Below, piece by piece: positions 4,929-31,687 of a stretch of 37,406 bases of DNA. The notes beneath the pieces are model-generated. The model had not been told where the DNA came from, made no database searches, and saw only the letters and a list, made by a program, of their open reading frames with translations. Positions within the stretch are counted from its first letter, which is position 1, and each line of letters starts with the position of its first letter. The position numbers and the translations under genes were made by a program. The stretch is from IMG/VR virus record IMGVR_UViG_3300044630_007413, positions 1 through 37,406 of that record. The stretch is one strand, 5' to 3'. The DNA comes from a virus.

Positions 4929-7900
4929 ATGGCGATAATAAAAATTAATACGGGAAATTATGGTGGAGAAACTGCGGTTATTACTTACTATCCTTGCACA
5001 GGTGGTACCATTAATATTGGTACTGTTGTCATGCCGTATTATTATGACACAAATTATTATTTAGGAACATATTCAGTTTATTTTAGTAATTTAGACAAAA
5101 CTTGTTACGCCGAAGTTGCCTGCCCAACACCAACTCCTACTGCGACACCATCACTAACCCCGACAATTACAAAAACTCCTATTTTTGTTACACCAACAAA
5201 TACCCCAACACTTACTCCAACAAACACATTAACTCCAACTAATACAATCACCCCCACTAATACAATCACCCCTACTAATACGGTTACACCAACCAATACA
5301 ATTACTCCAACAAACACAATCACCCCTACTAATACAGTTACCCCAACAAACACATTAACACCTACTCAAACTCTAACACCTACTCAAACATTAACTCCAA
5401 CTAATACCATCACCCCAACTGTCACAGAAACTCCAACTAATACTCTTACCCCCACAAATACTGTTACACCAACCGTAACTGAAACCCCAACCAATACTCT
5501 TACTCCCACCAACACCATAACACCCACAGTTACAGAAACTCCAACCCAAACCCCAACAGAAACTCCAACCCAAACTCCAACAGAAACGGTAACTCCTACT
5601 CAAACATTAACCCCCACAGTTACAGAAACCCCAACAAATACATTAACCCCCACAGTTACGGAAACACCAACAAATACTTTAACACCTACTCAAACTCTAA
5701 CACCGACCAATACTGTTACACCGACCAACACATTAACACCAACAAATACTCTTACACCGACAAACACAGTAACCCCAACTAATACCATCACCCCAACTGT
5801 CACAGAAACTCCAACTAATACTCTTACCCCCACAAATACTGTTACACCAACCGTAACTGAAACCCCAACCAATACTTTAACTCCTACCAATACCGTTACA
5901 CCGACCGTAACAGAAACCCCAACCAATACTCTTACCCCAACCAACACCATAACACCCACAGTTACTGAAACTCCAACAAATACCTTAACACCCACAAATA
6001 CTGTTACACCTACTAACACCTCAACCCCAACAAATACTTTAACGCCAACAAATACTCTTACACCGACAAACACGGTAACTCCAACAAATACTCTTACACC
6101 AACGAATACTGTTACTCCAACTAACACATTAACACCAACAGTAACTGAGACTCCTACGTTAACACCAACAAATACGGTAACACCTACAAACACCATAACA
6201 CCCACAGTAACTGAGACTCCTACAAATACTTTAACTCCAACTAATACCTTAACCCCAACAAATACCTTAACCCCAACAAATACAATTACACCAACTCAAA
6301 CTATTACCCCAACTAATACGGTAACCCCAACAAATACTGTTACCCCAACAAATACTGTTACCCCAACAAATACCCTTACTCCTACAAATACCCTTACGCC
6401 AACAAATACCTTAACGCCGACTAACACCCTGACACCGACTAACACCCTGACACCAACAAATACTGTTACCCCAACGAATACCCTTACTCCTACAAATACC
6501 GTTACCCCCACAAACACCTTAACCCCAACAAATACAGTTACTCCTACGTTAACGCCAACCAATACCTTAACACCTACTCAAACATTAACGCCAACCAATA
6601 CCTTAACACCTACTCAAACATTAACGCCAACCAATACCTTAACACCTACTCAAACTCTAACACCTACTCAAACTCTAACACCTACTCAAACTCTAACACC
6701 TACTCAAACTCTAACACCAACTGTTACAGAAACGCCAACTAACACGTTAACACCGACTAATACTATTACGCCAACCGTAACTGAAACTCCCACAAATACC
6801 TTAACCCCAACCAATACCCTGACACCTACAAATACTATTACTCCTACAAATACTATTACTCCCACAGTTACTGAAACACCTACGAATACTCTTACTCCTA
6901 CGAATACCTCAACCCCAACTCAAACTATTACCCCAACGAATACCTTAACACCGACAAATACGGTAACTCCCACAAACACCGTAACTCCAACAAATACCCT
7001 GACACCTACAAATACTATTACTCCTACCAACACTTTAACACCAACGAATACATTAACACCTACAAATACTGTCACCCCAACAAACACGTTGACACCGACT
7101 AACACTTTAACGCCAACAAATACCTCAACCCCAACATTAACCGAAACACCCACGTTAACACCGACTAATACATTAACCCCAACTCAAACTCTAACTCCAA
7201 CCAATACATTAACACCAACAAATACACTAACACCTACAAATACCCTAACCCCAACTAATACGGTTACTCCCACAAACACATTAACACCAACTATTACACC
7301 AACCAATACGGTTACCCCAACAAATACATTAACACCAACCAATACTCTTACTCCAACCAATACGGTAACACCTACAAATACCGTTACTCCTACTCAAACA
7401 TTAACCCCAACTAATACTCTTACTCCAACCAATACACTAACCCCTACTCAAACATTAACACCAACACTTACTCCCACAAACACTCTTACTCCAACTAACA
7501 CGTTGACACCGACTATTACGGTAACACCAACTAATACTTTAACTCCAACCGTTACTCCAACGAATACATTAACACCAACAAATACGAATACCCCGACGAA
7601 TACATTAACACCCACCAATACGTTAACACCAACAAATACTAATACCCCGACTGTAACTCCAACTAACACGTTGACACCGACTATTACGGTAACACCTACA
7701 AATACGTTAACACCGACAAATACTTTAACACCAACCAATACAGTAACTCCGACCAACACCTTAACTCCAACGAATACCATTACTCCAACGAATACCATTA
7801 CTCCAACGAATACCATTACTCCAACAAATACTTTAACACCTACGAATACCATTACCCCAACCAACACGTTGACTCCAACGGTGACACCGACAAACACATT

Positions 7901-10900
7901 AACACCAACCAATACACTTACTCCAACTAACACATTAACCCCAACAGTAACACCAACTAACACAGTTACTCCAACGAATACCGTTACACCCACCAATACA
8001 GTTACTCCAACGAATACTCTTACCCCTACTCAAACATTAACACCCACGAATACCTTAACTCCAACAAACACTATTACTCCGACTAACACCTTAACCCCTA
8101 CCAACACTATTACTCCGACTAATAGCATCACCCCTACAAATACATTAACTCCAACAAATACTCTTACTCCCACATTAACTCCAACAAATACTCAAACTCC
8201 AACAAATACTCTAACACCTACGAATACGTTAACCCCAACATTGACACCTACAAATACTCTTACGCCAACGAATACTCTTACTCCAACTAATACTTTAACA
8301 CCTACTAACACGCCAACCAACACAGTAACACCTACTAATACCGTAACCCCAACAAATACTCTTACTCCTACTGTAACACCAACAAATACTATCACGCCAA
8401 CAAACACTCTTACGCCAACTAATACTGTTACTCCAACCAATACCATCACCCCTACAAGTACATTAACTCCAACAAATACATTAACACCAACGAATACTAT
8501 TACCCCAACTGTTACACCTACTAACACTTTAACTCCCACTAACACGTTAACACCTACCAATACCCTAACTCCAACTGTTACTCCAACAAACACCTTAACT
8601 CCAACCAATACCTTAACACCTACTGTTACCCCAACCACCACCTTAACTCCAACCACCACCTTAACTCCAACTCAAACACCGGCACCATCTTGTGATATTG
8701 ATTACACGATGATACCATCACCAACACCAACCGCCACACCAACTAATACTTTAACCCCAACATTAACTCCAACAAATACACTCACACCAACAAACACTAT
8801 TACCCCTACCAATACTTTAACACCAACCAATACCGTAACCCCGACTAATACTGTTACCCCAACTTTAACTCCAACAAATACCTTAACTCCAACGAATACG
8901 GTTACGCCAACAAACACCCTAACCCCAACTAATACGGTAACTCCAACAGTAACGCCAACTAATACGGTAACATCTACCAATACTGTTACTCCTACAAATA
9001 CCGTTACACCTACAAATACATTAACCCCAACTAATACCCTTACTCCGACTAACACAATTACACCGACAAACACGGTAACTCCGACTAACACCCTTACTCC
9101 AACGAATACGTTAACACCTACAAACACAGTTACACCTACTAACACCTTAACCCCAACAAATACTGTTACTCCAACCAATACTATAACGCCAACCTTAACT
9201 CCAACCAATACCATCACCCCTACAAATACCTTAACTCCAACCAGAACTCTTACACCAACTATTACTCCAACGAATACGATTACTCCTACGAACACCCTTA
9301 CACCAACTAAAACCTTAACGCCAACCTTAACCCCAACCAATACGGTTACCCCTACTAATACCTTAACCCCTACTAATACCTTAACCCCAACTGTTACCCC
9401 TACGAATACCCTTACACCGACCAATACTCTAACACCAACTAACACTTTAACTCCAACAAATACTGTTACACCTACGAATACTTTAACGCCAACTAATACT
9501 CTTACTCCGACTAACACAATTACACCAACCAGAACTCTCACTCCAACAGTTACCCCAACGAATACTTTGACCCCAACAAACACACTAACACCTACAAATA
9601 CCGTTACACCGACTAATACTATTACTCCTACATTAACACCAACTAACACGTTGACACCTACCAATACGGTTACACCAACTAATACGGTAACTCCAACTAA
9701 TACCCTTACCCCAACGGTAACTCCTACCAACACTATCACTCCTACGAATACTGTTACCCCAACTCAGACTTTAACACCCACAAACACAATCACACCAACA
9801 AATACCTTAACTCCAACAAACACAATTACTCCAACAAATACGGTAACACCAACTAAAACCTTAACTCCAACCTTAACTCCCACAAACACAATCACACCAA
9901 CAAATACATTAACTCCAACAAATACACTCACACCAACAGTAACTCCAACCAATACTTTAACACCAACTAATACCTTAACTCCAACAAATACTGTTACCCC
10001 AACTTTAACTCCAACAAATACCTTAACTCCAACGAATACACTTACTCCCACTAGAACTTTAACCCCAACCCTTACCCCAACGAACACAATAACTCCAACC
10101 AATACCATCACACCGACTAACACAATTACCCCAACTGTAACACCGACAAATACGTTGACTCCAACAAATACCCTGACACCTACAAACACAGTTACACCGA
10201 CAGTTACTCCTACTAACACCCTAACACCAACCAATACCGTAACTCCAACTAACACCCTTACACCAACAGTAACGCCAACTAATACGGTAACACCTACGAA
10301 TACTATTACTCCTACCAATACTCTTACACCAACAGTAACGCCAACTAATACTCTAACACCAACAAATACAATCACACCAACTAACACTATCACCCCTACA
10401 AATACCCTGACTCCAACTAATACAATCACACCTACAAACACTTTAACTCCAACGAATACGATTACTCCTACGGTAACACCAACCAATACCCTGACGCCAA
10501 CAAATACTGTTACTCCAACCAATACACTTACTCCAACGTTGACACCGACAAATACAATCACACCAACAAATACAATCACACCAACTAGAACTCTAACTCC
10601 AACAGTTACTCCTACCAACACCATCACTCCAACTAATACCGTTACTCCTACAAATACTCTGACACCTACCAATACGGTTACCCCAACAAACACTTTAACA
10701 CCTACAAACACTTTAACACCTACAAATACATTAACCCCAACCAACACTTTAACGCCAACTGTCACTCCAACTAACACCTTAACACCAACGAATACGTTAA
10801 CACCTACAAACACAGTTACACCTACAAATACTTTAACGCCGACTAATACTCTTACCCCTACCAACACCCTAACACCAACTAACACCATCACACCAACCAG

Positions 10901-13900
10901 AACTCTTACCCCAACTGTAACCCCAACAAACACAATCACGCCAACGAATACTTTAACGCCAACTAATACGGTAACCCCAACTCAAACTCTTACACCTACT
11001 AACACCCTAACACCTACAAATACTGTTACTCCAACTAATACTCTAACCCCCACTAGAACTTTAACTCCAACCCTTACCCCAACAAATACCGTTACTCCAA
11101 CCAATACGTTGACTCCTACCAATACTATAACACCAACGGTAACACCAACAAATACATTAACTCCAACCAACACACTTACACCAACTAACACCATTACTCC
11201 AACAGTAACACCTACAAATACGTTGACACCTACGAATACCCTTACCCCAACAAACACTTTAACACCAACTCAAACTCTTACTCCAACAAATACAGTCACT
11301 CCAACTAATACTTTAACTCCAACAAACACATTAACCCCAACTAACACCATCACACCAACAAATACTATTACTCCTACGAACACCCTTACACCAACTAAAA
11401 CCCTTACACCAACTGTAACACCTACGAATACTATTACTCCTACAAATACGTTGACACCGACTAACACAGTTACTCCAACGGTTACTCCTACGAACACCCT
11501 TACACCAACCAATACCATTACCCCTACAAATACGGTTACGCCAACAAACACTATTACACCAACCAATACTCTGACACCGACAAACACATTAACCCCAACT
11601 AGAACTCTAACACCAACCTTAACTCCAACAAACACAATTACTCCAACAAACACAATTACTCCAACAAATACGTTAACACCAACTCTCACACCTACGAACA
11701 CAATTACTCCAACTCAAACCATCACCCCAACAAATACCCTTACACCTACTAATACTGTTACTCCTACAAATACATTGACTCCAACAAATACCATCACCCC
11801 TACTAATACATTAACACCAACAAGAACTCTCACACCTACGGTTACCCCTACTAATACCTTAACACCAACAAATACTCTAACCCCAACTAGAACTCTCACT
11901 CCAACTGTTACTCCTACCAATACTCTAACCCCAACTAACACGTTGACACCTACCAATACTATTACTCCTACTGTAACTCCTACCAACACTATAACTCCAA
12001 CAAATACTATAACACCAACTAGAACATTAACTCCAACTGTAACCCCTACAAACACAATTACACCAACCAACACTTTAACTCCAACAAACACGGTTACTCC
12101 AACGTTGACACCTACTAATACATTAACACCTACAAACACCGTTACACCGACCAATACCCTAACCCCAACTGTTACACCAACAAATACTATCACCCCAACC
12201 AATACAGTTACCCCTACGAATACCTTAACCCCAACTGTTACACCAACAAATACTCTAACTCCAACCAATACTCTTACCCCTACTAATACTCTCACACCAA
12301 CTAACACCATCACACCAACCAGAACTCTTACCCCAACTCAAACTATTACACCTACCAATACATTGACACCAACTGTAACTCCAACAAATACTTTGACCCC
12401 AACAAACACATTGACACCCACTAACACCCTTACACCAACCAATACTTTAACGCCAACTAATACGGTAACCCCTACCAATACTTTAACTCCAACTAGAACT
12501 CTTACTCCTACTAACACGATTACACCAACAGTAACTCCAACCAATACAATTACCCCAACTAATACGGTAACCCCTACCAATACCTTAACTCCTACTGTTA
12601 CCCCAACAAACACATTAACACCGACTAACACAATTACTCCTACAAACACAATTACACCAACCAATACTATTACACCCACAAACACCTTAACTCCTACCAA
12701 TACCATTACTCCAACTGTTACTCCTACGAATACTATTACACCGACAAACACCATCACCCCAACTAGAACTCTTACTCCAACTGTTACCCCAACCAACACC
12801 TTAACTCCTACCAATACAATAACACCAACCAACACCCTGACACCTACTAATACAATAACACCCACGAATACTATTACTCCTACAAATACTCTAACTCCAA
12901 CCAAAACTGTTACTCCAACAAATACTGTTACTCCTACCAATACGGTTACACCAACAAACACTATAACTCCAACCAATACTATCACCCCAACAAACACATT
13001 AACCCCAACTAATACTCAAACCCCAACTAGAACTTTAACACCTACGGTAACACCTACAAACACTATTACACCCACAAACACATTAACACCAACTAATACG
13101 GTTACACCTACATTAACACCAACCAATACAATTACGCCAACAAACACATTAACACCGACTAATACTTTGACCCCCACAAACACTCTTACACCTACTAACA
13201 CATTAACTCCAACAAACACCTTAACCCCAACTAGAACTCTAACTCCAACAGTTACACCTACCAATACTCTTACCCCAACCAATACAATAACACCAACCAA
13301 CACATTAACTCCAACGTTGACACCAACCAACACAATCACACCTACCAATACTGTTACTCCAACTAATACATTGACACCAACCAACACTTTAACTCCAACA
13401 AATACCCTTACTCCTACGAATACTATTACTCCAACAAATACGTTGACTCCGACTAGAACCTTAACACCAACCTTAACTCCAACGAATACAATTACCCCCA
13501 CTAATACCATTACTCCTACTAACACTTTAACACCGACTGTAACACCTACCAACACCATCACGCCAACGAATACAATCACTCCAACAAGAACATTAACTCC
13601 AACAGTTACTCCAACAAACACCCTAACACCAACCAATACTTTAACGCCAACAAACACCCTAACACCAACATTAACTCCTACCAATACTATTACCCCAACA
13701 AACACATTGACACCGACTAACACCCTAACCCCAACTAGAACTATTACTCCTACGAATACATTAACACCAACTAAAACCATAACACCGACTAACACCATCA
13801 CCCCAACTAGAACCCTTACCCCAACAGTAACACCAACAAATACCGTAACTCCGACAAACACTATTACACCAACCAATACACTTACTCCAACAAACACTAT

Positions 13901-16900
13901 TACTCCAACCAATACACTTACACCTACTAATACCATCACACCAACAAGAACCCTTACTCCAACTGTAACCCCAACTAATACCCTAACACCTACAAATACT
14001 GTTACTCCAACCAATACTTTAACTCCAACAGTAACCCCTACCAATACCCTAACACCAACAAACACTCTTACCCCAACTAACACATTAACCCCCACTAATA
14101 CCCTTACACCGACTAGAACCTTAACACCAACCTTAACTCCAACGAATACAATTACCCCAACTAACACATTAACACCAACAAATACTTTAACTCCAACAGT
14201 AACCCCTACCAATACTATTACACCGACTAACACGTTAACTCCAACCAATACTTTAACACCAACCAACACTATTACCCCTACCAATACTTTAACGCCAACA
14301 AGAACTCTTACTCCAACAGTTACCCCAACGAATACTCTTACACCCACGAATACTATTACTCCAACAAATACATTGACATCAACTGTTACCCCAACAAATA
14401 CGTTGACACCTACAAATACATTAACTCCAACCAATACTCAAACACCCACAAACACAATCACACCGACTAATACATTAACACCTACAAACACCCTTACCCC
14501 GACTGTTACTCCAACTAACACGTTGACACCTACTAATACTGTAACTCCTACTAGAACTCTTACTCCAACAGTTACCCCAACGAATACTCTTACACCCACG
14601 AATACTATTACTCCAACAAATACGGTTACTCCAACCAATACATTAACACCCACTAGAACTTTAACACCAACTCTTACCCCAACCAATACTATTACACCAA
14701 CAAATACCCTGACTCCCACTAGAACTTTAACCCCAACCCTTACCCCCACTAACACTTTAACTCCAACAAATACTGTTACACCTACGAATACGTTAACTCC
14801 AACAAATACGTTGACACCGACTAATACCATCACTCCAACAAGAACATTAACTCCAACAGTTACTCCAACCAATACAATTACCCCTACGAATACACTTACT
14901 CCAACTAGAACTCTAACCCCGACTGTTACACCAACAAATACGTTGACACCGACTAATACCTTAACTCCAACGAATACCATCACCCCCACAAATACTCAAA
15001 CTCCAACCAATACAATAACGCCGACAAACACAATTACTCCTACGAATACATTAACGCCAACAAGAACTCTAACTCCGACCCTTACTCCAACAAATACCAT
15101 CACTCCAACGAATACGGTTACACCGACTAACACCCTAACACCAACCAATACTCTTACGCCGACTAACACGATTACTCCAACAAATACGTTGACACCGACT
15201 AATACCTTAACTCCAACAAGAACTTTAACTCCGACTGTAACACCTACTAACACCATTACACCTACGAATACCATAACCCCAACTAGAACCCTTACTCCTA
15301 CGTTGACCCCCACTAACACCCTTACCCCAACAAATACAATTACCCCTACGAACACTATAACACCAACTATCACACCAACGAATACTATTACCCCAACAAA
15401 TACAATTACACCTACGAGAACTATAACACCAACTATCACACCAACGAATACCATCACTCCAACGAACACGATAACACCTACGAATACTTTAACTCCGACT
15501 AATACTTTAACTCCGACAAACACATTAACCCCAACAAATACGTTGACACCTACGAACACTATTACCCCAACTAGAACGTTGACTCCAACCGTTACACCAA
15601 CCAATACGATTACCCCTACTAATACCATTACACCTACTAGAACCCTTACACCAACTGTTACCCCAACCAACACTTTAACTCCAACAAATACTCAAACGCC
15701 AACGAATACGCTGACACCAACAAATACCATTACTCCTACGAATACTTTAACACCTACGAATACAATAACACCGACAAACACTATTACCCCAACTAGAACT
15801 ATTACTCCAACGTTGACACCTACTAACACTTTAACCCCTACTAATACCTTAACACCAACAAACACTATTACTCCGACTCTAACCCCAACAAATACTATTA
15901 CCCCAACAAATACCCTTACCCCAACTAGAACAATAACTCCAACGGTAACACCAACGAATACTATTACACCGACTAATACTTTAACACCGACTAATACAAT
16001 AACACCAACCAATACCATCACCCCTACCAATACATTAACACCCACGAACACAATAACCCCAACTAGAACTATCACACCAACATTAACACCGACTAATACT
16101 CTTACCCCTACTAACACTTTAACTCCAACTAGAACAATTACACCGACATTAACCCCAACAAACACAATCACACCGACTAATACTCTTACCCCTACTAATA
16201 CTCTCACACCAACTAATACCATAACCCCTACCAACACATTAACACCTACAAACACTCAAACCCCAACTAGAACTATCACACCAACTCTTACCCCAACCAA
16301 TACAATTACACCTACTAACACATTGACACCTACCAATACATTAACACCAACCATCACACCGACTAATACTATAACACCTACTAACACATTGACACCTACC
16401 AATACATTAACACCAACCATCACACCGACTAATACTATCACACCTACTAATACTATTACACCAACGAGAACTATCACGCCAACTGTTACTCCTACTAACA
16501 CAATCACACCAACGAACACAATTACACCAACGAGAACTATCACGCCAACTGTTACTCCTACTAACACAATCACACCAACGAACACAATTACACCAACGAG
16601 AACTATTACTCCTACTCTAACTCCTACTAACACAATCACACCAACGAACACAATTACCCCAACTAGAACAATAACTCCAACGGTAACACCAACGAATACT
16701 ATTACTCCTACTAACACTTTAACACCGACAAACACAATCACACCGACAAACACAATCACACCTACTAACACTTTAACCCCTACTAACACATTAACGCCAA
16801 CAAGAACTCTAACTCCGACTCTAACTCCTACGAATACTATTACACCAACAAACACAATCACCCCAACGAGAACTCTTACTCCCACAGTAACCCCTACCAA

Positions 16901-19898
16901 TACTATCACCCCAACAAATACTATTACACCAACGAACACAATAACCCCAACTAGAACTATCACTCCAACCAATACTCTGACACCAACAAACACAATAACT
17001 CCAACTAGAACTCTTACACCAACTGTCACACCAACTAACACCATCACACCAACAAACACAATTACTCCAACAAATACTCTTACTCCTACATTAACACCCA
17101 CAAACACCATTACCCCAACAAATACCCTGACTCCAACCAATACTATAACTCCAACAAATACCATCACACCAACCAACACATTAACACCCACAAACACTCA
17201 AACCCCAACTAGAACTATTACACCAACTGTCACACCAACCAATACCATCACTCCAACTAACACATTGACACCTACGAATACATTAACACCAACCATCACA
17301 CCTACTAATACAATTACACCAACAAATACTATTACACCAACGAGAACTATTACTCCTACTCTAACTCCTACCAACACAATCACACCAACAAATACAATAA
17401 CTCCAACTAGAACTCTTACACCAACATTAACACCGACTAATACAATCACCCCAACTAACACCATCACACCAACTAGAACACTAACTCCGACTCTAACCCC
17501 AACTAACACCATCACACCGACTAATACTATTACACCAACAAATACCCTGACTCCAACGAATACCATCACACCAACAAATACCCTGACTCCAACGAATACC
17601 ATTACGCCAACCAGAACACTCACTCCTACTCTAACACCTACTAATACTATTACCCCAACGAATACCATAACTCCAACTAGAACCCTAACACCAACAGTAA
17701 CACCCACGAATACTCTTACACCAACCAATACTCTTACACCAACCAATACCCTGACACCAACAAATACAATTACTCCAACTAATACAATAACACCTACGAA
17801 TACCATTACTCCTACTAGAACTATTACGCCAACTATAACACCAACAAATACAATCACTCCGACCAATACCATTACACCAACTAGAACTATCACACCAACT
17901 CTTACCCCAACCAATACTCTGACACCTACTAACACAATTACACCAACTAGAACTATCACACCAACATTAACACCAACTAATACTCTGACACCTACTAACA
18001 CAATTACACCAACTAGAACTATTACTCCTACTCTAACTCCTACCAACACAATCACACCAACAAACACAATTACACCAACGAGAACTATTACACCAACATT
18101 AACCCCTACTAACACTATTACCCCAACGAATACCATAACTCCAACTAGAACCATTACGCCAACTCTAACACCAACAAATACAATCACTCCGACCAATACT
18201 ATTACACCAACAAGAACTCTAACTCCTACTCTAACACCAACTAACACAATCACTCCCACAAGAACTATTACTCCTACTCTAACTCCTACTAATACTATTA
18301 CACCGACTAATACCATAACCCCAACTAGAACTATCACTCCTACTCTAACTCCTACCAACACAATCACACCAACAAACACAATTACACCGACATTAACCCC
18401 TACTAATACTTTAACACCGACTAATACAATAACACCAACTAGAACTATTACTCCTACGAATACATTAACACCAACTAAAACCATAACACCGACTAGAACC
18501 ATAACACCAACAGTAACACCGTCAACAGTAATTGTGACGGTAAATGCAACAAACTGTTGTGATGGTTTAACATATACTTTCAACTTGACCGAAGGTGATT
18601 GGTTGGCAATATTTGCTAATAATCCCGCTAACGCTTGGTATATAAATGGTTTTGGATGTGCTACCAATTTTATTATAGTTGCATACCAACCAATAAACCC
18701 ATTATATTCAATAATTGGGGGACCATATCCGGGTGGTTGTCCTGAATGTTTACTTGAACATCCGTGTCCAACCCCAACTCCAACCCCAACCAGTACCATT
18801 ACACCAACTAATACCATCACCCCAACTTTAACACCGACTAATACAATAACACCAACTAGAACTATTACTCCTACGAATACATTAACACCAACTAAAACCA
18901 TAACACCGACTAGAACCATAACACCAACAGTAACTCCAACAACAGTAATTGTGACGGTAAATGCAATAAACTGTTGTGATGGTAATCAATATACTTTCAA
19001 CTTGACCGAAGGTGATTGGTTGGCAATATTAGCCAATAATCCTGCTAGTGTTTGGGGTGTAAATGGTTCTTGTTGGAGTGATTTTATTATAACCGCATAC
19101 AACCCAATAAACCCATTATATTTAAATGCAGGAGGACCATATACGGGTGGTTGTGTTGAATGTTTATCTGATTATCCATGTCCCTCACCAACCCCAACTC
19201 CGACTAGAACCATTACACCAACTAATACCATCACCCCTACAAGAACTATAACACCAACAAGAACCATAACACCAACAAGAACTATTACTCCTACGAATAC
19301 ATTAACACCAACTAGAACACCAACATCTGGAGGTGCAACACCAACACCAACAAGAACCATAACACCATCACCATCAACTGTACCATTTAGTTGTCCAGGT
19401 GGTTGTCGAACATATAGAATTATCTTCCTTAACATAAATTTGGGTGGTGATGTAACATACACAGATTGTTTAACTGGAAACCAATCATCAATACCATATA
19501 GTTGGATACAAGGCCAAACCGACGCTATTTTTGTATGTGCATGTTTTGATACAGTAGTTGTTCAATGGAATGACCCTAATGACTACAGTATAACCCAAAC
19601 ATCAGCTGAATGTACATTAAACCAATTTTGTACATGTTATGAGGTTACTATTGACCAACAAGATTTAAATGACTCACAAGATAATACGGTATATTTAAGA
19701 GTTCAAGAATGTGATGGTAGTTGGACGACAAGAACATTTAATACAGCGGGACCAACCAATATTTGTATTATGAATCTTTGGTCTGTGTCTGGAGGTACTT
19801 CTCTTTCTATGTACATCTTACAGGGTGGAAATATCACCGCTGTATCATTCTCAACAGCAACTACTTCGGGATTTCCATGTTCAGGAACAATTTGTTAA
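4929..19898 (+). CDS. Giant Thr-Pro-repeat fibre/adhesin-like protein, 4989 residues
   Basis: Residues 1-65 form a small head domain with Cys23, Cys59 and Cys65. Residues 66-4531 are a Thr-Pro tract made of TPTxTx hexapeptides and TPTx tetrapeptides, broken only near residues 1250-1265 (Cys1255-Asp-Ile-Asp-Tyr). Two copies of an ~80-residue Cys-rich domain follow (4533-4613 and 4672-4751), each joined by short Thr-Pro linkers. A 171-residue Cys-rich terminal domain (4819-4989) ends the protein. There is no signal peptide and no recognised enzyme motif. Thr-Pro-rich stretches of this kind act as extended, poorly folded stalks in other surface proteins. Here the stalk could hold receptor-binding domains far from the virion. 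Location after a baseplate-like gene and before a tail gene supports a virion role. The frame stays open for 15 kb, so the gene is very likely real; its function is inferred. Confidence 0.8.
5124..8682 (+). repeat. Thr-Pro repeat tract 1 (acidic, then neutral)
   Basis: Tandem 18-base and 12-base units encode [30 protein letters not shown] and TPTV. All four Thr codons and all four Pro codons are used, so the peptide is far more regular than the DNA. Glu appears only here, in the sixth position of the unit (TVTETPT), between about 5410 and 7150. The remainder to 8680 is uncharged. Apart from one Lys near the start, I saw no Lys or Arg in this tract. Confidence 0.9.
8683..8735 (+). other. Non-repeat island separating the two Thr-Pro tracts
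   Basis: The regular repeat is interrupted by a short segment encoding [20 protein letters not shown]. It carries a single Cys (residue 1255) and an SPTPTPT-type restart, the same way linkers begin after Cys-rich domains elsewhere in this gene cluster. It may be the remnant of a lost domain or a fusion joint. Charged-residue content of the repeats differs on its two sides. Confidence 0.7.
8736..18521 (+). repeat. Thr-Pro repeat tract 2 (basic)
   Basis: About 9.8 kb of in-frame 18- and 12-base units. From about 9241 onward Arg (always AGA as far as I saw) and a few Lys occupy the fourth position of the unit ([18 protein letters not shown]); Glu is absent. Ile increasingly replaces Leu and Val in the sixth position toward the 3' end, where a 22-residue super-unit becomes regular. 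No stop or frameshift interrupts it. Confidence 0.9.
16321..16700 (+). repeat. Higher-order 66-base repeats inside tract 2
   Basis: The phrase CCAACGAGAACTAT or a close variant recurs at 16461, 16527, 16593 and 16659, exactly 66 bases apart, encoding [10 protein letters not shown](or L)[12 protein letters not shown]. Just upstream, a 50-base stretch at 16321-16370 recurs identically at 16387-16436, again 66 bases apart. Near-identical DNA here, compared with scrambled codons elsewhere, indicates recent local amplification. Similar 22-residue units continue to about 18400. Confidence 0.8.
18411..18827 (+). repeat. 417-base tandem duplication, copy 1
   Basis: This unit comprises about 110 bases of Thr-Pro repeat, a Cys-rich domain (18525-18767) and a following Thr-Pro linker. 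It recurs head to tail starting at 18828. The linker portion starting TTAACACCGACTAATAC is identical over roughly 100 bases in the two copies, and the domain portion is closely similar. Confidence 0.85.
18525..18767 (+). repeat. Dispersed Cys-rich domain module, copy A (also at 18942-19181 and 26294-26533)
   Basis: Three copies of an ~80-codon module begin with ACAGTAATTGTGACGGTAAA. They encode a CCD start, a [12 protein letters not shown] core, a GGPY-GGC-ECL motif and a closing PC before a Thr-Pro linker. Two copies lie in the giant gene and the third in the gene ending at 27235. Long identical DNA stretches across all three show recent duplication or gene conversion. Confidence 0.85.
18828..19241 (+). 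repeat. 417-base tandem duplication, copy 2
   Basis: This is the second copy of the preceding unit. Its Cys-rich domain (18942-19181) is one codon shorter than in copy 1 and has diverged most in the middle ([13 protein letters not shown] versus [13 protein letters not shown]). The 3' boundary is approximate because it lies in Thr-Pro repeat DNA. Confidence 0.8.
19383..19895 (+). repeat. C-terminal Cys-rich module shared with 26717-27232
   Basis: The last 171 codons of the giant gene and the last 172 codons of the gene at 21617-27235 encode closely related proteins. Both start [12 protein letters not shown], both contain [13 protein letters not shown] and [10 protein letters not shown], and both end PCSGT-C. 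Several DNA stretches are identical, including the region encoding TRTFNTAG and NICIMNLWS. The copies differ mainly in the segment after TYRI. Confidence 0.85.
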
Positions 19899-21616: not shown

Positions 21617-24600
21617 ATGAGTAATTTTATAGTTAATAGGTGTGGTGTAACAGAAACTTTAAATGCTGATATTCCTGGTGCGTCATATTCCACAATAATT
21701 ACAGGAGATACAATTTTAAGTGTGGCTGGTATTTGTTATGAGGTAACAGCTACAGGAGGTACGGGTGCGGACATTACTCTTTCATTACCCAGTGGATATA
21801 ATGTAGGTAGTTGTAATTCATTCCAATGTAGGTCTTATATTATATCGGGATGTAGTAGTGGAGTTCAATATGAGGTTGTGGTACCATATTCTATAAATCC
21901 TGTTGGTGTCCCTGGACAATTAGTTGTTTGGAATAATCAATGTTTTGGTATCGTATCACACGGAGGTTTGGGTACTTATGTCCTTAATCAATCTTCATAT
22001 GTTCTACCAGCCCAACTTTCAGGATTAACTTGTAATGACGGGTATAGTGGGTGTACCTCAATGCAAACTCATACAATAACTGAATGTGCTTGTGATGAAA
22101 ACACATATACCGTAAATCTACCAACCGGTGTAACAATCGGTGATTCATTTTTATATAATGGAATATGTTATTCTGTTGGAACTAATCTAAGTTTTGATTT
22201 TAGCGCAAAATATTTAGATGTTGATACTTTTTATTCTGCCGGATGTCCCGCATGTACATCAACAATAAACTGTAATGAGAGTTATTTAGTTCAACAATGT
22301 GGTACGGAATTTTATTTTTTATCTCCTGTTGCAGGTAATGTTGGAGAATATTTTAGAACGACTCAATATATTTGTTATCAATATGTTCAACCAGACCCAA
22401 CAATACAGTATTTTAATACCGGACTTAATGGTACATATTATGAATCGATAGCTAATTGTAATGATTGTATTCCACCACCGTCTCAATATGGTATATCTTG
22501 CTGTCCTCCTTATGTTTATTATTCATCAGTAACTCAAACATTTCTTATTGATTTTGTTTATTTAATATATGATGAAACTCTCGAAACAGTTGTTTCTTGT
22601 TTTAAAGGATATGATGGAGTTCCAACAACAGCAATAAATTTAGATACAACATATTCTAGCGGTAGTTATAGTATTGTTCAACAGGGTTATGAAGTTTGTG
22701 CCGGACTTCCTAATTATACTGGTGATACTCCAACATATAGTTGTCCTGAATGTCCATCACCGACCCCAACACCAACGCGAACTAGAACCCCTACACCAAC
22801 CCCAACCCCTGACGATAATTGTGGTTGTTGGACATTAACGATTGCTCAATCTGATTTAGATATTGCAATAGGAAATACTGACACATCTTTAAATAATAAA
22901 TTATTTTACCCATATACCCCTTGTGGTACTACCACAATTGAAATAACAGGGTCTACAACAGTTTCAGGTGTAACGTATTATTGTTTAAATGATTTATCAA
23001 TACCACCACCTAGTGTTTACTACTATATTAACGATATATATGTTGGTTCAAGTGCTAGTAATTGGCAATCAAGTTTTACATCTTGTACAAATGATGGAGA
23101 TTGTTCTATTTCACCAACCCCAACCAACACATTAACCCCTACGAATACCATTACACCAACCAACACATTAACCCCTACGAATACCATTACACCAACAAAC
23201 ACAATAACCCCTACGAATACCATTACACCAACCAATACCATCACACCATCATTTAATGATTTACCATCACCAACACCAACTAATACCCTAACACCAACAA
23301 ATACATTAACACCAACCCTAACACCAACAAATACTGTAACACCAACAGTAACACCAACAAATTTAATTTTTTTATATACATTTATAGATTGTTGTAGTAG
23401 CGAACCACCGCCACTTAATGAGGTTAGGTTTAATATTGTGGGTTCAATTCCTTTAAATATAGGGGATACATATACTATTGATGGTTATTGTTATAGTGTT
23501 AATAGTGGTGGTGATACATATGACCCATTTTATTCTGTAAAAACACTTGGTACATTTTTTCCCGATTGTGCTTCGTGTACAATTGAACATCCGTGTCCAA
23601 CCCCAACCCCAACCCCAACTGTAACAGAAACCCCAACAGAAACACCAACTCCTGAGCCGACTATAACACCAACAAATACTATAACGATAACCCCAACCAA
23701 TACATTAACACCTACAAATACAATCACACCCACCAATACAATTACCCAAACACCAACCAATACATTAACACCAACCCCAACCAATACTTTAACTCCAACT
23801 ATAACGATAACCCCCACAAATACTTTAACACCTCAACCCGAAATTTCACCAACACCTAGTGCAAGTCCAACACCTACTCAATCATATAAATTTAAAAGTT
23901 GTTGTGGTGATTACTATGTATTAAACGATATACCCGGTATTATTGGACAAACATATAGTGGGTTAACTACTGGTGGTTGTTGGACAAGTACAATTGATGA
24001 ATTTGAACCTAAACAAAATGCAACATTAGGATTAAATATAGAAGAACCTATATCGTGTGACGATATTGGTTGTTCACCTTGTAACGATTATGTGTTAATA
24101 AATGAAACACCTAATAGTTTTCTATTTGATTGGATAAAATGTAATGGTGAGGTTTTTATTGGTGTCAATCTTACAGCTGGTGATACCATAAATTTAGAGT
24201 GTGTTTGTTTATTACCCGCCACATCAGGATTTACAAATAATTTAGTTGAATCGGGTGTAACTATTAATCCAATTGGTCCGGGAACATGTATAACCCCAAC
24301 CCCAACCCCGACTTTAACACCAACCAATACACCAACAAGAACCATTACACCAACCAATACATTAACACCAACATTAACCCCCACCAATACCATCACACCC
24401 ACTAATACCCTTACACCAACAAATACATTAACACCCACACCAACATTAACACCAACAGTTACCTCATCACCCGGAGCACCGTGTGTTAGAGATACTGTAA
24501 CACCTAAAGGTGTTTTAATTAATATCACATCAAATTCAATCTATAGTGATTGTACCGTTTATACAGGTTTAACTGAGTCAACAGTTACAGGTTCAACATA

Positions 24601-27235
24601 TTGTGTTTCATTACCGTCAGGAAGTACTTGTAATTTAACAGGTATTAACCCTAATTTACTTGAAATTTATGTAAAATTAGATTGTGTAGGATGTTGTCAA
24701 AACATATATAGAGTTAATTTAGATGATTGTTGTGGTACAATAACCACACCAACCCCAACCCCATCAACCCCAACCAATACGGTAACTCCAACAGTTACAC
24801 CTACAAATACGCTAACCCCCACAAATACTTTAACTCCAACAAACACATTAACACCAACAATAACTCCAACACAATGTGTTAATGTTGTTACAAATGGTAA
24901 TTTTGATACTAATTTAAGTGGTTGGACTAACGATAGTGGAGCACCTTGGGTTTGGAGTTCAAACTATGGAGGTTCTGCAGAAGCAACAGGTATGGATGAA
25001 CTATCTTGGCTATCTCAAAATTGTTTAACAGAAAATTGCGAATATCAGATAACATTTGAAGTTGTAATGAACAGTCCTTATATTCAATTTGTTGTTGTTG
25101 CGGGTGACACTAATATTGGTGGTTTACCACAAGGAGATAACGTATCTTCTACAATAACAACAAGTGGAATATACACAGTAAATTTAGTTTGTACGGGTAG
25201 TACTGAATTACAAATGTTTACATTTGACGGTAATGGAGCAGATAATGTTTTTGTAAAAAGTATAAGTGCTTGTTTATTAAATTGTCAAACACCAACTCCT
25301 ACTCCAACAAATACATTAACTCAAACGAATACCATTACACCAACAAATACACCAACCCCCACGAATACAATAACACCAACAAATACTCTTACACCAACTA
25401 ATACTCTTACTCCAACAGTTACGGAAACTCCAACCAATACCATCACCCCAACTAACACAATCACACCGACAAATACTTTAACTCCAACAGTTACCGAAAC
25501 TCCAACCAATACTCAAACACCGGGAGGTTCACCAACCCCAACTAATACTCTTACTCCAACTAATACTCAAACTCCTACCAATACCGTTACACCGACCGTA
25601 ACTGAAACCCCAACCAATACTTTAACACCTACAAATACTCTTACTCCAACAGTTACTGAAACTCCAACCAATACTCAAACACCGGGAGGTTCACCAACCC
25701 CAACTAATACTCAAACACCAACTAATACTATAACTCCAACCAACACCTTAACACCTACTGTTACAGAAACACCCACTAATACTCTTACTCCAACAGTTAC
25801 GGAAACTCCAACAAATACTATCACACCGACAAATACTGTTACTCCTACCAATACGGTTACACCAACAAACACCTTAACACCTACTAATACTTTAACACCT
25901 ACTGTTACAGAAACACCAACCAATACCATCACCCCAACTAATACTCAAACTCCAACCAATACTTTAACACCAACCATTACCGAAACCCCAACTAATACAA
26001 TCACACCAACCCTTACACCCACTAATACTTTAACCCCAACTAACACAATCACACCGACCATTACCGAAACACCAACTGTAACAGAAACACCCACTAATAC
26101 TCAAACACCAACTAATACCATCACACCAACAAATACTTTAACACCTACCAATACTCAAACGCCAACGAATACTCAAACACCAACTAACACAATCACACCA
26201 ACTAACACAATCACACCAACGGTGACACCAACTAATACAATTACACCAACATTAACACCAACAAGAACCATAACACCAACGGTAACTCCAACAACAGTAA
26301 TTGTGACGGTAAATGCAATAAACTGTTGTGATAGTTCAACATATACTTTCAACTTGACCGAAGGTGATTGGTTGGCAATATTTGCTAATAATCCTGCTAA
26401 CGCTTGGAGTGTAAATGGTTCTTGTTGGAATAATTTTAATATAGATACCTATAACCCAGTTCTACCATTATATTCAATAAATGGAGGACCATATACGGGT
26501 GGTTGTGTTGAATGTTTATCTGAATATCCATGTCCCTCACCAACACCAACACCCACTAACACCATCACACCAACAAGAACCCCAACTAATACTATTACAC
26601 CAACTATCACACGAACTATTACCCCAACAAGAACCATAACACCAACTAATACACCAACTAGAACTATAACACCAACATTTGGAGGTGTTACCCCAACACC
26701 ATCACCGTCACAACCACCATTTAGTTGTCCAGGTGGTTGTAAAACATATAGAATTATTATTACTAACGGAAGTATGACTGGTAATATAACATACACAGAT
26801 TGTTTAACTGGAAACCAATCATCAATACCATTTGATTGGTACCAAGGTCAAACAGATACTATTTATGTATGTGCATGTCTGAATACAGTAACAATTGCGG
26901 GTTATAATGAGGGTGGTGATTATAGTCTAACCCAAACATCAGCTGAATGTACATTAAATCAATCTTGTACATGTCACACGGTTACTATTAACCAACAAGA
27001 TTTAGATGACTCACAAAATAATACGGTATATTTAAGAGTCCAAGAATGTGATGGTAGTTGGGCGACAAGAACATTTAATACAGCGGGAACAACCAATATT
27101 TGTATTATGAATCTTTGGTCTCTGTCTGGTACTCCTTCTCTTTCTATGTATATCTTACAGGGTGGAAATATCGTTACAGCACCAAACTCAACAGTAACTA
27201 ATCTAACATCTCCATGTTCAGGAACAATGTGTTAA
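21617..27235 (+). CDS. Large multidomain Cys-rich / Thr-Pro adhesin-like protein, 1872 residues
   Basis: At least a dozen small Cys-rich domains are threaded on Thr-Pro linkers. Residues 1 to about 375 hold several ~60-residue modules with a C-x-C or CC start, a GD or GxCY core and a closing CxxC. Further modules follow near 23380, 23890, 24065 and 24480. Residues 1087-1223 (24875-25285) read NGNFDTNLSGWT... and resemble the jelly-roll carbohydrate-binding modules of the CBM4/9/22 type. After a long linker (25288-26290, containing TVTETPT units and two TPGGSPTPT breaks) come a CC-type domain (1560-1639) and the 172-residue terminal domain shared with the giant gene. It is preceded by a 177-base gap and followed closely by a tail gene. 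The likely role is a multivalent receptor- or glycan-binding virion protein. Confidence 0.75.
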   Translation: MSNFIVNRCGVTETLNADIPGASYSTIITGDTILSVAGICYEVTATGGTGADITLSLPSGYNVGSCNSFQCRSYIISGCSSGVQYEVVVPYSINPVGVPGQLVVWNNQCFGIVSHGGLGTYVLNQSSYVLPAQLSGLTCNDGYSGCTSMQTHTITECACDENTYTVNLPTGVTIGDSFLYNGICYSVGTNLSFDFSAKYLDVDTFYSAGCPACTSTINCNESYLVQQCGTEFYFLSPVAGNVGEYFRTTQYICYQYVQPDPTIQYFNTGLNGTYYESIANCNDCIPPPSQYGISCCPPYVYYSSVTQTFLIDFVYLIYDETLETVVSCFKGYDGVPTTAINLDTTYSSGSYSIVQQGYEVCAGLPNYTGDTPTYSCPECPSPTPTPTRTRTPTPTPTPDDNCGCWTLTIAQSDLDIAIGNTDTSLNNKLFYPYTPCGTTTIEITGSTTVSGVTYYCLNDLSIPPPSVYYYINDIYVGSSASNWQSSFTSCTNDGDCSISPTPTNTLTPTNTITPTNTLTPTNTITPTNTITPTNTITPTNTITPSFNDLPSPTPTNTLTPTNTLTPTLTPTNTVTPTVTPTNLIFLYTFIDCCSSEPPPLNEVRFNIVGSIPLNIGDTYTIDGYCYSVNSGGDTYDPFYSVKTLGTFFPDCASCTIEHPCPTPTPTPTVTETPTETPTPEPTITPTNTITITPTNTLTPTNTITPTNTITQTPTNTLTPTPTNTLTPTITITPTNTLTPQPEISPTPSASPTPTQSYKFKSCCGDYYVLNDIPGIIGQTYSGLTTGGCWTSTIDEFEPKQNATLGLNIEEPISCDDIGCSPCNDYVLINETPNSFLFDWIKCNGEVFIGVNLTAGDTINLECVCLLPATSGFTNNLVESGVTINPIGPGTCITPTPTPTLTPTNTPTRTITPTNTLTPTLTPTNTITPTNTLTPTNTLTPTPTLTPTVTSSPGAPCVRDTVTPKGVLINITSNSIYSDCTVYTGLTESTVTGSTYCVSLPSGSTCNLTGINPNLLEIYVKLDCVGCCQNIYRVNLDDCCGTITTPTPTPSTPTNTVTPTVTPTNTLTPTNTLTPTNTLTPTITPTQCVNVVTNGNFDTNLSGWTNDSGAPWVWSSNYGGSAEATGMDELSWLSQNCLTENCEYQITFEVVMNSPYIQFVVVAGDTNIGGLPQGDNVSSTITTSGIYTVNLVCTGSTELQMFTFDGNGADNVFVKSISACLLNCQTPTPTPTNTLTQTNTITPTNTPTPTNTITPTNTLTPTNTLTPTVTETPTNTITPTNTITPTNTLTPTVTETPTNTQTPGGSPTPTNTLTPTNTQTPTNTVTPTVTETPTNTLTPTNTLTPTVTETPTNTQTPGGSPTPTNTQTPTNTITPTNTLTPTVTETPTNTLTPTVTETPTNTITPTNTVTPTNTVTPTNTLTPTNTLTPTVTETPTNTITPTNTQTPTNTLTPTITETPTNTITPTLTPTNTLTPTNTITPTITETPTVTETPTNTQTPTNTITPTNTLTPTNTQTPTNTQTPTNTITPTNTITPTVTPTNTITPTLTPTRTITPTVTPTTVIVTVNAINCCDSSTYTFNLTEGDWLAIFANNPANAWSVNGSCWNNFNIDTYNPVLPLYSINGGPYTGGCVECLSEYPCPSPTPTPTNTITPTRTPTNTITPTITRTITPTRTITPTNTPTRTITPTFGGVTPTPSPSQPPFSCPGGCKTYRIIITNGSMTGNITYTDCLTGNQSSIPFDWYQGQTDTIYVCACLNTVTIAGYNEGGDYSLTQTSAECTLNQSCTCHTVTINQQDLDDSQNNTVYLRVQECDGSWATRTFNTAGTTNICIMNLWSLSGTPSLSMYILQGGNIVTAPNSTVTNLTSPCSGTMC
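25288..26290 (+). repeat. Thr-Pro repeat linker of the 1872-residue protein
   Basis: About 1 kb of in-frame [18 protein letters not shown] and TPTVTE units. The Glu-containing units resemble the 5' part of the giant gene, whereas its last units ([11 protein letters not shown]) match the 3' part. A TQTPGGSPTPT break occurs twice (about 25513 and 25681) in identical sequence context, showing an internal duplication of about 168 bases. Confidence 0.85.
26717..27232 (+). repeat. C-terminal Cys-rich module, second copy
   Basis: This is the partner of 19383-19895. It has the same CPGGC start, the same [12 protein letters not shown] motif and the same PCSGT-C end, with stretches of identical DNA. 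It has two parts: a TYRI-type subdomain and a C-T-C---TI-QQDLDDSQ-NT subdomain. The latter also resembles the segment CGCWTLTIAQSDLD at about 22819 in the same gene. Confidence 0.8.
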
Positions 27236-30099: not shown

Positions 30100-30576
30100 A
30101 TGTCTAATTTTAAATTATTTAGAGGTTACTTAGATGAACCGGGTCGAATGACCGATAACAACTCAAATCAAAATGGGGTGTTCATTCCAGCATTTGAACC
30201 GATGAGACAAAATAGATTCTTAATTATTTTTCCTGAAATATTCAATATATCACCTTATTTAGTTAGAATGGCATCAAGACCAACAGCAACATTTAATGAT
30301 GGTTTGGTTAGATGGGATGACATGCAGTTTACACTACACGACCCAATAAGTCCATCCATGTCACAAACAATTTATGAACTTATAGGTACAGAAATACTTT
30401 ATAGTCCGATGGTTATAAAACTTCAAATGTTAGGACCTGTTGGAGATATAATTTCAGATTGGTCAATATGGGGAGCAATTAATTCGGCCGATTTTGGTGA
30501 TTTAGACTACAGTTCTGATGAATTGGCGGATGTTACATTAAACATGAGTATATCAAATGTTATATTAAATTATTAA
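30100..30576 (+). CDS. Tail tube protein (T4 gp19-like)
   Basis: The 158-residue product matches the contractile-tail tube family in length and landmarks. There is an early NRFLIIFPE strand, a central segment ARRANGED as MQFTLHDPISPSMSQTIYEL, and the diagnostic C-terminal run VGDIISDWSIWGA followed by FGDLDYSSDELADVTLNMS. In T4 gp19 and the related tube initiator gp54 the corresponding region reads much the same (DFGDLDYSSDE). The protein would form the inner tube through which DNA passes, so its presence argues for a myovirus. The alternative is a gp54-like or second tube paralogue. It begins one base after the RuvC-like gene and is followed by a terminator-like hairpin about 90 bases downstream. 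Confidence 0.75.
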   Translation: MSNFKLFRGYLDEPGRMTDNNSNQNGVFIPAFEPMRQNRFLIIFPEIFNISPYLVRMASRPTATFNDGLVRWDDMQFTLHDPISPSMSQTIYELIGTEILYSPMVIKLQMLGPVGDIISDWSIWGAINSADFGDLDYSSDELADVTLNMSISNVILNY

Positions 30577-30600
30577 ATTAATTTTGTAATTTAATTTTTT

Positions 30601-30620
30601 TTGTTTATACTTTATCTATT
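30601..30620 (+). promoter_or_regulatory. Promoter-like element before the candidate small RNA
   Basis: A T-tract leads into TTGTTTATACTTTATCTATT. The same TTGTTTATACTT occurs at 30731 just before the primase start, and close variants occur at 4861 and 33862. Here no ORF follows, only hairpins and a T-run, which favours a transcriptional rather than translational role for the element. Confidence 0.45.
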
Positions 30621-30621
30621 A

Positions 30622-30702
30622 TAAAAAACATATCATATCATTGTAGCACAATGTACAATGGTATAAGACGGAAGTTGTTGGTGTACGCTTCCGTCTTTTT
30701 TA
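30622..30702 (+). ncRNA. Candidate small structured RNA of unknown function
   Basis: Directly after the promoter-like element lie two abutting hairpins. The first pairs 30635-30645 (ATATCATTGTA) with 30654-30664 (TACAATGGTAT), 11 pairs including one G-U, around an 8-base loop GCACAATG. The second pairs 30665-30674 (AAGACGGAAG) with 30688-30697 (CTTCCGTCTT), 10 perfect pairs, around a 13-base loop, and runs into T6. Because base 30664 ends one helix and 30665 begins the next, the helices could stack coaxially. It does not fold as a tRNA. The alternatives are a tandem terminator of the tail tube transcript or a leader of the primase gene. Confidence 0.45.
30665..30702 (+). terminator. Rho-independent terminator
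   Basis: A perfect 10-base stem (AAGACGGAAG / CTTCCGTCTT) with a 13-base loop is followed by six T residues (30696-30701). It is the only clear intrinsic terminator in the window. It separates the structural/RuvC block from the replication block and would end both the tail tube transcript and any RNA started at about 30620. Confidence 0.75.
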
Positions 30703-30730
30703 TTTCCAAATTTTGTTATTTCAATTTTTT

Positions 30731-30748
30731 TTGTTTATACTTCCTATT
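30731..30748 (+). promoter_or_regulatory. Promoter-like element abutting the primase start
   Basis: TTGTTTATACTTCCTATT, preceded by TCAATTTTTT, ends exactly at the primase ATG. The same arrangement (TCAATTTTTTTTT-TTG-TATAATTTAGCATT-ATG) precedes the gene at 33879. If the TATA box acts as a -10 element, the transcript would have almost no leader. Confidence 0.4.
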
Positions 30749-31687
30749 ATGTCATCAATAGCAATAGAATATGCACCAGTTATCGATATTTTAGAAGATA
30801 TTCTAGGTGAACATCGAATGCATAATGATTATAAGGGTCAAATATCTTTTGATTGTCCCGTTTGTTCATATGATATTAAAGGTTTGGATGATGGAGATGG
30901 TAAGGGAAACTTAGAGGTTAATTACAAACGAGCGGTTTATAAATGTTGGTCATGTGCTGAAACAAACAATACTCACGGTTCAATATATAAATTAATTAAA
31001 AAGTATGGAAATCAAAAACATCTGAAAAGATATGAGTTATTAAAACCAGAAGATGTTGAATTTGTACAACCAATTAAGAAAGAAGTAAAACTACCCCAAG
31101 GGTTTGTACCACTAAATAATGTTAGTTTAGGTATGAAGTTGTCACACCAATATAAACAGGCAATGACATACCTTAAAAAAAGAAACATAGATGATAAAAT
31201 AATAAGAAAATTTAATATTGGGTTTTGTTATGATGGACACTATGAGAATAGAATTGTAATTCCATCGTATAATGAACAAAGAAAAATTAACTATTTTATT
31301 GCTCGTTCATATTTGTCCAAAACAAAAATGAAATATAGGAATCCTGATGTTCAAAAGGAGTTAATCATCTTTAATGAAAGTCTAATTGATTGGACTAAAA
31401 AGATTTATCTTGTTGAGGGTGTTTTTGATTCGGTTTTTTTAGATAACGCAATACCAATGTTAGGTAAATACATAAGTGATTTACTATATAGTAAAATATA
31501 CGAGAATGGTAATGAGGTTACAATTGTTTTGGATGGGGATGCATGGAGTGACGCTGAGAAACTTTACCATAAAATAAATTGTGGTAGATTAATGGGTAAA
31601 GTTAATATCATCAAGTTACCAAAAGATAAAGATATTGCCGACTTACAAGGTAATTTACAAGATTATAAAGAATTTAAATTAGACTAA
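30749..31687 (+). CDS. DnaG-type DNA primase with zinc finger and Toprim domain
   Basis: The 312-residue product makes RNA primers for replication. A zinc-binding motif is seen at Cys36-P-V-Cys39 and Cys66-W-S-Cys69 near the N-terminus. The Toprim core has Glu223 in YLVEGVFDSVF and Asp262/Asp264 in VLDGDAWSD, with a further acidic site in PKDKDIAD (residues 291-298). No helicase domain follows, so the protein is shorter than T7 gp4 or cellular DnaG, and the helicase must be encoded elsewhere. I chose the ATG at 30749. A TTG 36 bases upstream is in frame but would lie in the promoter-like T-tract and add a hydrophobic, non-conserved leader. The stop overlaps the next start by one base (TAATG). 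Confidence 0.85.
   Translation: MSSIAIEYAPVIDILEDILGEHRMHNDYKGQISFDCPVCSYDIKGLDDGDGKGNLEVNYKRAVYKCWSCAETNNTHGSIYKLIKKYGNQKHLKRYELLKPEDVEFVQPIKKEVKLPQGFVPLNNVSLGMKLSHQYKQAMTYLKKRNIDDKIIRKFNIGFCYDGHYENRIVIPSYNEQRKINYFIARSYLSKTKMKYRNPDVQKELIIFNESLIDWTKKIYLVEGVFDSVFLDNAIPMLGKYISDLLYSKIYENGNEVTIVLDGDAWSDAEKLYHKINCGRLMGKVNIIKLPKDKDIADLQGNLQDYKEFKLD

Follow-up and report, generated by a model that had tools for sequence, protein, structure and literature searches.

The two-hairpin element reported here is a real structured RNA with a conserved fold, and 67 distinct relatives of it were found in jumbo phages. The element lies in a window of 37,406 nt (the whole stretch of DNA that was analysed), a 37.4-kb IMG/VR fragment of a tailed phage. 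The comparison of the relatives showed that selection acted on the folded shape and on one exposed loop. Judging from sequence, we give an even chance to the reading that the element is a trans-acting sRNA of ~65–85 nt, the loop of which would pair with the 5′ end of the mRNA of a gene divergent from bS21.

The order after a tail-tube-like ORF is a promoter-like box, two abutting hairpins, a T6 run, a second near-identical box, and the ATG of the primase. The features of the locus, in window coordinates, are as follows.

30100–30576: tail-tube-like ORF, with its stop at 30576.
30583–30613, + strand: predicted sRNA promoter P1, consisting of TTTG (30583–30586), N19 and TATACTTT (30606–30613); predicted start ~30618.
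30618–30701, + strand: predicted small RNA of ~84 nt, start taken from the −7 box and end from the terminator; match to covariance model R2 of 86.9 bits.
30635–30664, + strand: hairpin 1, 11 pairs (one U-G), by sequence reading, shuffle test and covariation; 5′ arm ATATCATTGTA (30635–30645), loop GCACAATG (30646–30653), 3′ arm TACAATGGTAT (30654–30664).
30665–30697, + strand: hairpin 2, an intrinsic-terminator hairpin of 10 pairs with a 13-nt loop, by sequence reading, shuffle test and covariation; 5′ arm AAGACGGAAG (30665–30674), loop TTGTTGGTGTACG (30675–30687), 3′ arm CTTCCGTCTT (30688–30697).
30679–30684, + strand: UGGUGU in the loop of hairpin 2, a putative interaction site, by conservation of loop and leader.
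30696–30701, + strand: T6 run of the terminator, by sequence reading.
30712–30743, + strand: predicted primase promoter P2, consisting of TTTG (30712–30715), N20 and TATACTTC (30736–30743); predicted start ~30748.
30749–31687, + strand: DnaG-type primase gene, a neighbour outside the RNA (PF08275, E 1e-7; phrog_47, E 1.9e-38).

Rereading of the sequence confirmed all coordinates given in the preliminary description for the two hairpins, their abutment at 30664/30665 and the T6 run. The gap was also free of ORFs as claimed, the ORF list being empty from the tail-tube stop at 30576 to the primase; a listed TTG start at 30713 continues in frame into the true primase ATG at 30749. The MFE of the fold was −27.4 kcal/mol vs −12.8 ± 2.5 kcal/mol for 200 dinucleotide shuffles (z −5.7), and 0/200 shuffles were as good. 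The segments GTACA (30653–30657) and TGTAC (30682–30686), from which an alternative fold had been proposed, exist. The alternative fold itself was rejected, as GUAC on both sides is restricted to the window's own close group and the pairing is absent in the relatives.

The relatives were gathered by tail-tube protein, primase, primase profile, and a protein-free DNA pattern. In all, there were 67 distinct structured relatives. They were named for convenience as group A (the window), group B (L179, L180, L206, L209, L223, L233, L234), group C (L181, L182), and group D (most members). Both hairpins are kept in the nine closest relatives despite tail-tube protein identity down to 66%. Distant phages (primase 60–77%) showed the same layout with wholly different stems. 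In the 52 sequences of group D, 98.1% of 1026 pair cells were paired and 289 cells were changed on both sides. The group D covariation score was 0.816 vs 0.215 for shuffled and 0.12–0.19 for slid partners; the alignment was fitted to the covariance model, which favours structure and inflates pair counts, and this is a minor worry because the gap to both controls is so large. Groups A and B together scored 0.418 vs 0.222 in the control, with two-sided changes in 9 of 21 pairs. In these two groups, 93.9% of the hairpin 1 cells were paired and five of its pairs had two-sided changes. Hairpin 2 had two-sided changes at four pairs in groups A and B and at 8/8 in group D. Compensatory changes in both helices exceeded the controls, which is the mark of a structure-conserved ncRNA gene. 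The conserved G-U pairs (48/52 at one position) can pair only on the primase-sense strand, and therefore the unit is the RNA.

Covariance models gave one confident copy of the sRNA per whole record, and the scan of whole records added a small number of weaker matches to R2, with E 0.001–0.006. The model R1 found no match below E 6 in 0.89 Mb from 80 unrelated viral loci. The predicted length of the sRNA is ~84 nt in the window and ~65–70 nt in most relatives. In L181 (4800–4960), ~100 nt with extra hairpins separate hairpin 1 from the terminator hairpin.

The primary sigma factor of Bacteroidota (sigma-ABfr) has the consensus TTTG/TAnnTTTG (PMC6847099, PMC7366714), with a spacer of ~19–20 nt. 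The promoter-like element of the preliminary description is present and fits this consensus better than the E. coli type, and a scan for E. coli-type promoters gave 67 sites vs 72.1 in shuffles, i.e., no excess. The predicted start at 30618 assumes that the first T of the −7 box is −12. A box of TATATTTA/TATACTTT stands 5′ of the hairpins in nearly every relative; the final G of TAnnTTTG is missing in most, and the −33 box is variable. Host-type promoters are numerous in the one 288-kb relative examined for promoters, where TTTG-N18-21-TATA[CT]TT occurred 47 times vs 2–16 times in Markov sequences, and 22 of the 47 sites were within 60 nt 5′ of an ORF start. This genome-wide enrichment 5′ of ORFs, with the conserved TTT(G)/TATA(T/C)TT box, predicts that the sRNA has its own promoter. 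We strongly infer that the sRNA is transcribed independently from this host-type promoter and terminated by hairpin 2.

The near-copy box TTTTGTTTATACTT (30729–30742) is located immediately 5′ of the primase ATG, and the relatives likewise have a second promoter between the sRNA and the primase, after the terminator. An almost leaderless primase mRNA is predicted, its −7 box ending 5 nt before the ATG (window 30736–30751), and this box is similarly close to the ATG in most relatives.

The primase-independent DNA pattern scan found 67 contigs with the unit, and the primase was directly downstream in 66 of the 67 matches. The 67th match (L390) has an aminotransferase-like gene between the intact sRNA unit and the primase. 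Because another gene is inserted there, the unit is independent and not a primase leader. The place of the sRNA is conserved, and the unit is separable from the primase. A primase leader or attenuator would always lie directly 5′ of the gene on one transcript, whereas the second promoter and the L390 insertion were found here. It is thus quite improbable that the unit is a cis element of the primase operon, i.e., an attenuator or insulator that blocks upstream readthrough and tunes primase expression. The 66 placements directly upstream of the primase are consistent with such an element, and so are the group D T run, which comes near or into the −33 region of the primase promoter, and the plain terminators that sister phages have at the same place. 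However, the unit has its own promoter and the primase another after the terminator, and the aminotransferase gene can intervene. A plain terminator needs neither hairpin 1 nor an invariant loop. There is also no conserved anti-terminator pairing, as many 5′ terminator arms in group D are G-rich and cannot pair with GACGGG. Attenuation via GGGAA:UUCCC in group D was rejected, being absent in many sequences.

The covariation, the conservation of the promoter and the separability from the primase all support the earlier proposal of a phage small RNA of ~80 bases that has a promoter and a terminator of its own, here as a predicted RNA. The structured leader or terminator that had also been considered is less likely, since the primase promoter lies downstream of the terminator and a gene stands between them in L390. 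Transcripts from the tail-tube gene that simply end here are unlikely to be the whole story, as the upstream gene varies while the unit stays. The idea of an RNA decoy found no support. Marine sister phages without the sRNA have a plain AU terminator or nothing at that place. The nearest primase from an isolate is that of Flavobacterium phage immuto (32%), which has only a plain terminator at its locus.

For lambda OOP RNA, a role as a replication-origin transcript was once proposed. The present RNA adjoins a primase, is AT-rich, and is predicted to be a short terminated transcript, which suits a primer or R-loop RNA. We consider this role very unlikely, because selection acted on RNA pairing and on one loop and not on an unstructured primer. 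No consistent GC-skew turn was found at the site in seven records, which is a weak test in T4-like replication.

The loop of the terminator hairpin contains GGUGU in 66/67 and UGGUGU in 65/67 distinct members, mostly with a G directly before UGGUGU; L209-type phages have GGUGG. In a plain terminator, no conservation of the loop would be expected. The basal part of hairpin 1 (GACGG with UUnGUUGGU) is nearly invariant in group D and combines G-U pairs with a G-G or G-A mismatch, and the remainder of the hairpin turns over, with a loop that is mostly GNRA or UUAAAA. Loop-loop kissing between GCAC (loop 1) and GUGU (loop 2) was rejected, as it is not conserved and loop 1 of group D is mostly of these two types. 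A scan with 16-mer loop patterns was also discarded, as its matches were mostly unrelated and at chance level.

An invariant loop on stems that turned over is what would be expected of a protein site. A trans-acting sRNA may accordingly be bound by a protein or a host RNA at its GGUGU loop and, in group D, at GACGG/GUUGGU, where the invariant non-Watson-Crick flanks G-A-C-G-G/G-U-U-G-G point the same way. The match to the bS21-divergent leader described below would then be a coincidence or a DNA operator. We regard this reading as unlikely.

The start regions of G002 were not enriched in ACACCA, which argues against general seed targeting of phage mRNA starts. Among 166 orthogroups from seven genomes, one stood out, with ACACC in 4/5 leaders. 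This was the 141-codon gene divergent from bS21. Its predicted mRNA 5′ end is ACACCAUAAA, in which ACACCA is complementary to the loop UGGUGU. The seven genomes contained no further ACACC-type site with a promoter box beyond this leader. Scanning for the gene yielded 56 distinct leaders, of which 55 had sufficient length for assessment. CACCAU was present in 53/55 (49 ACACCAU and 4 other) and was followed by AA in 53/53, and the flanks of the element drift and are AU-rich. A TATATT box lies 12 nt upstream of the element in 35/53 leaders, and therefore the A of ACACC is predicted to be at +1. The distance from the element to the ATG is 31–35 nt. As an mRNA element in its own right, ACACCAUAAA is a notable 5′ terminus, frozen at predicted +1 to +10 in most of the 55 distinct leaders (L541–L620).

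Among records with the gene, the leader element was found in 10/10 that bear the sRNA (8 ACACCAU, 2 UCACCAU) and in 0/4 that lack it; this comparison follows phylogeny (gene identity 56–100% vs 34–42%), so the co-occurrence represents few independent events. Binding of the loop by a protein or host RNA leaves both this co-occurrence and the place of the element at the predicted mRNA 5′ end unexplained. In its favour, 37 of 1280 comparable 6-mers were conserved upstream of some orthogroup, so that the chance for one given 6-mer is ~3%, and the target match alone is an event of this order. The leader element could alternatively be a DNA operator between two divergent promoters.

The pooled energy of the loop-leader duplex placed the gene 2nd of 166 orthogroups, and 8th to 121st with shuffled loop cores; shuffled cores also gave other orthogroups equal or better top scores. 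In single genomes, the energy of this 6–8-bp duplex does not by itself stand out, the rank of the gene being 3 to 68. Covariation between loop and leader is absent because both sides are nearly invariant, and no UGGUGA loops accompany the two UCACCAU leaders. The G before UGGUGU in group D can wobble-pair with the U of ACACCAU. This evidence is not decisive, and we put the loop-leader pairing itself at slightly under an even chance. A 16-nt complement at 172774 of G002 was rejected as a target, since it is present in that genome only and the gene there has no ortholog in the other six. This segment (L314 12775–12790) is a perfect complement of that phage's own sRNA loop and lies upstream of an 83-aa ORF.

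In the reading we prefer, that of a trans-acting sRNA with the bS21-divergent mRNA as its target, transcription of a discrete ncRNA would begin at a Bacteroidota-type promoter of its own and end at hairpin 2 and the U run. The RNA would consist of the variable hairpin 1 followed by the terminator hairpin, which displays the invariant (G/U)UGGUGU loop. The loop would act in trans by pairing 6–8 bases with ACACCAU at the extreme 5′ end of the mRNA, and this pairing would change the translation or decay of the mRNA. We speculate that a virion-type gene may in this way be repressed or delayed until late infection. That a new jumbo-phage sRNA family regulates the bS21-divergent gene, with the terminator loop kissing the first 6–8 nt of its mRNA, is a tentative proposal that we hold somewhat below even. 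Bacteroidota translation starts without Shine-Dalgarno pairing, and a retuning of host ribosomes has been proposed as the role of phage bS21. The pairing, if genuine, would be a post-transcriptional switch next to bS21 in hosts without Shine-Dalgarno pairing. The function is directly testable because of the covariation, the fixed place, the invariant loop, and the single conserved candidate target.

The target protein had no Pfam match above the cut-off and no PHROG match at E 0.001. Its AlphaFold model had a pLDDT of 88, and the PDB matches were weak, the first by E-value being the lambda tail terminator gpU (E 0.014). The VIA structure comparison gave Z ≤ 7.3, which is within the range of models without a true relative. 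The model weakly resembles small tail-completion proteins.

The window also contains two giant Thr-Pro-rich repeat ORFs, at 4929–19898 (4989 codons) and 21617–27235 (1872 codons), with many copies of ACACCAAC. The relative G002 has a Thr-Pro repeat ORF of 5472 codons, and similar genes were found in 7/7 large relatives examined. An antisense RNA against these genes, in which ACACCAAC is repeated hundreds of times, seems hardly plausible. The window loop UUGUUGGUGUA is an exact complement of TACACCAACAA in the repeats, and G003 has a 14-nt match three times, but with hundreds of low-complexity repeats such matches are to be expected. Against ACACCAA, most group D loops (GUGGUGU) have a mismatch at the next base, and some of the group B flanks do not fit either.

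Rfam release 15 had no family above the gathering threshold for the two-hairpin RNA, in agreement with the earlier remark that no known family was recognised. The best sub-threshold matches were RF01403 STnc290 (22.8 bits vs a gathering score of 60) and RF00515 PyrR (31.3 bits vs 54); the likeness is one of stem-loop shape only, and the RNA is a member of neither. Lambda OOP RNA is short, independently transcribed, and intrinsically terminated, and lies beside phage replication genes (PMC12197685). The present RNA is also short, intrinsically terminated, and beside a replication gene, and its independent transcription is predicted. OOP overlaps the cII gene and is antisense to it. The present unit lies between genes, reads in the same direction as its neighbours without overlapping any coding gene, and has its candidate target far away in the genome.

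Among other phage sRNAs, lambda PreS and VP882 VpdS act on mRNA of the host or the phage (PMC12197685). The present RNA resembles them as a phage-encoded sRNA that may act on mRNA in trans. PreS and VpdS depend on Hfq, whereas the putative seed of this RNA sits in the terminator loop; unlike them, this RNA is conserved through a jumbo-phage lineage. To our knowledge, Hfq is absent from most Bacteroidota, and we know of few sRNAs of lytic phages with a known job. A partial literature search found OOP, PreS and VpdS from other phages and none from Bacteroidota phages. We file the element as a new RNA family of the phage-encoded trans-acting sRNA kind. Should the target prove wrong, the two covariance models would still provide a marker of a jumbo-phage lineage common in fresh water, as well as a candidate family for Rfam.

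The large sRNA-bearing records span 170–310 kb, and bS21 is encoded in 8/10 of them. The carriers appear to fit the freshwater Bacteroidetes jumbo phages of Chen et al. 2022 (PMC9723584), whose bS21 phages share the host group and setting of the sRNA carriers. The main text of that paper does not contain 'non-coding', 'intergenic' or 'promoter', and this RNA is not described there. Annotated phage records gave no megablast match. The 288-kb relative has 23 tRNA genes in one block (L306 573–5473). The contig L294, filed as Prochlorococcus sp. AG-409-L21, carries a primase that belongs to this phage group (49% identity). The contig is listed in IMG/VR as well (L457) and is probably a phage that was sorted together with the cell.
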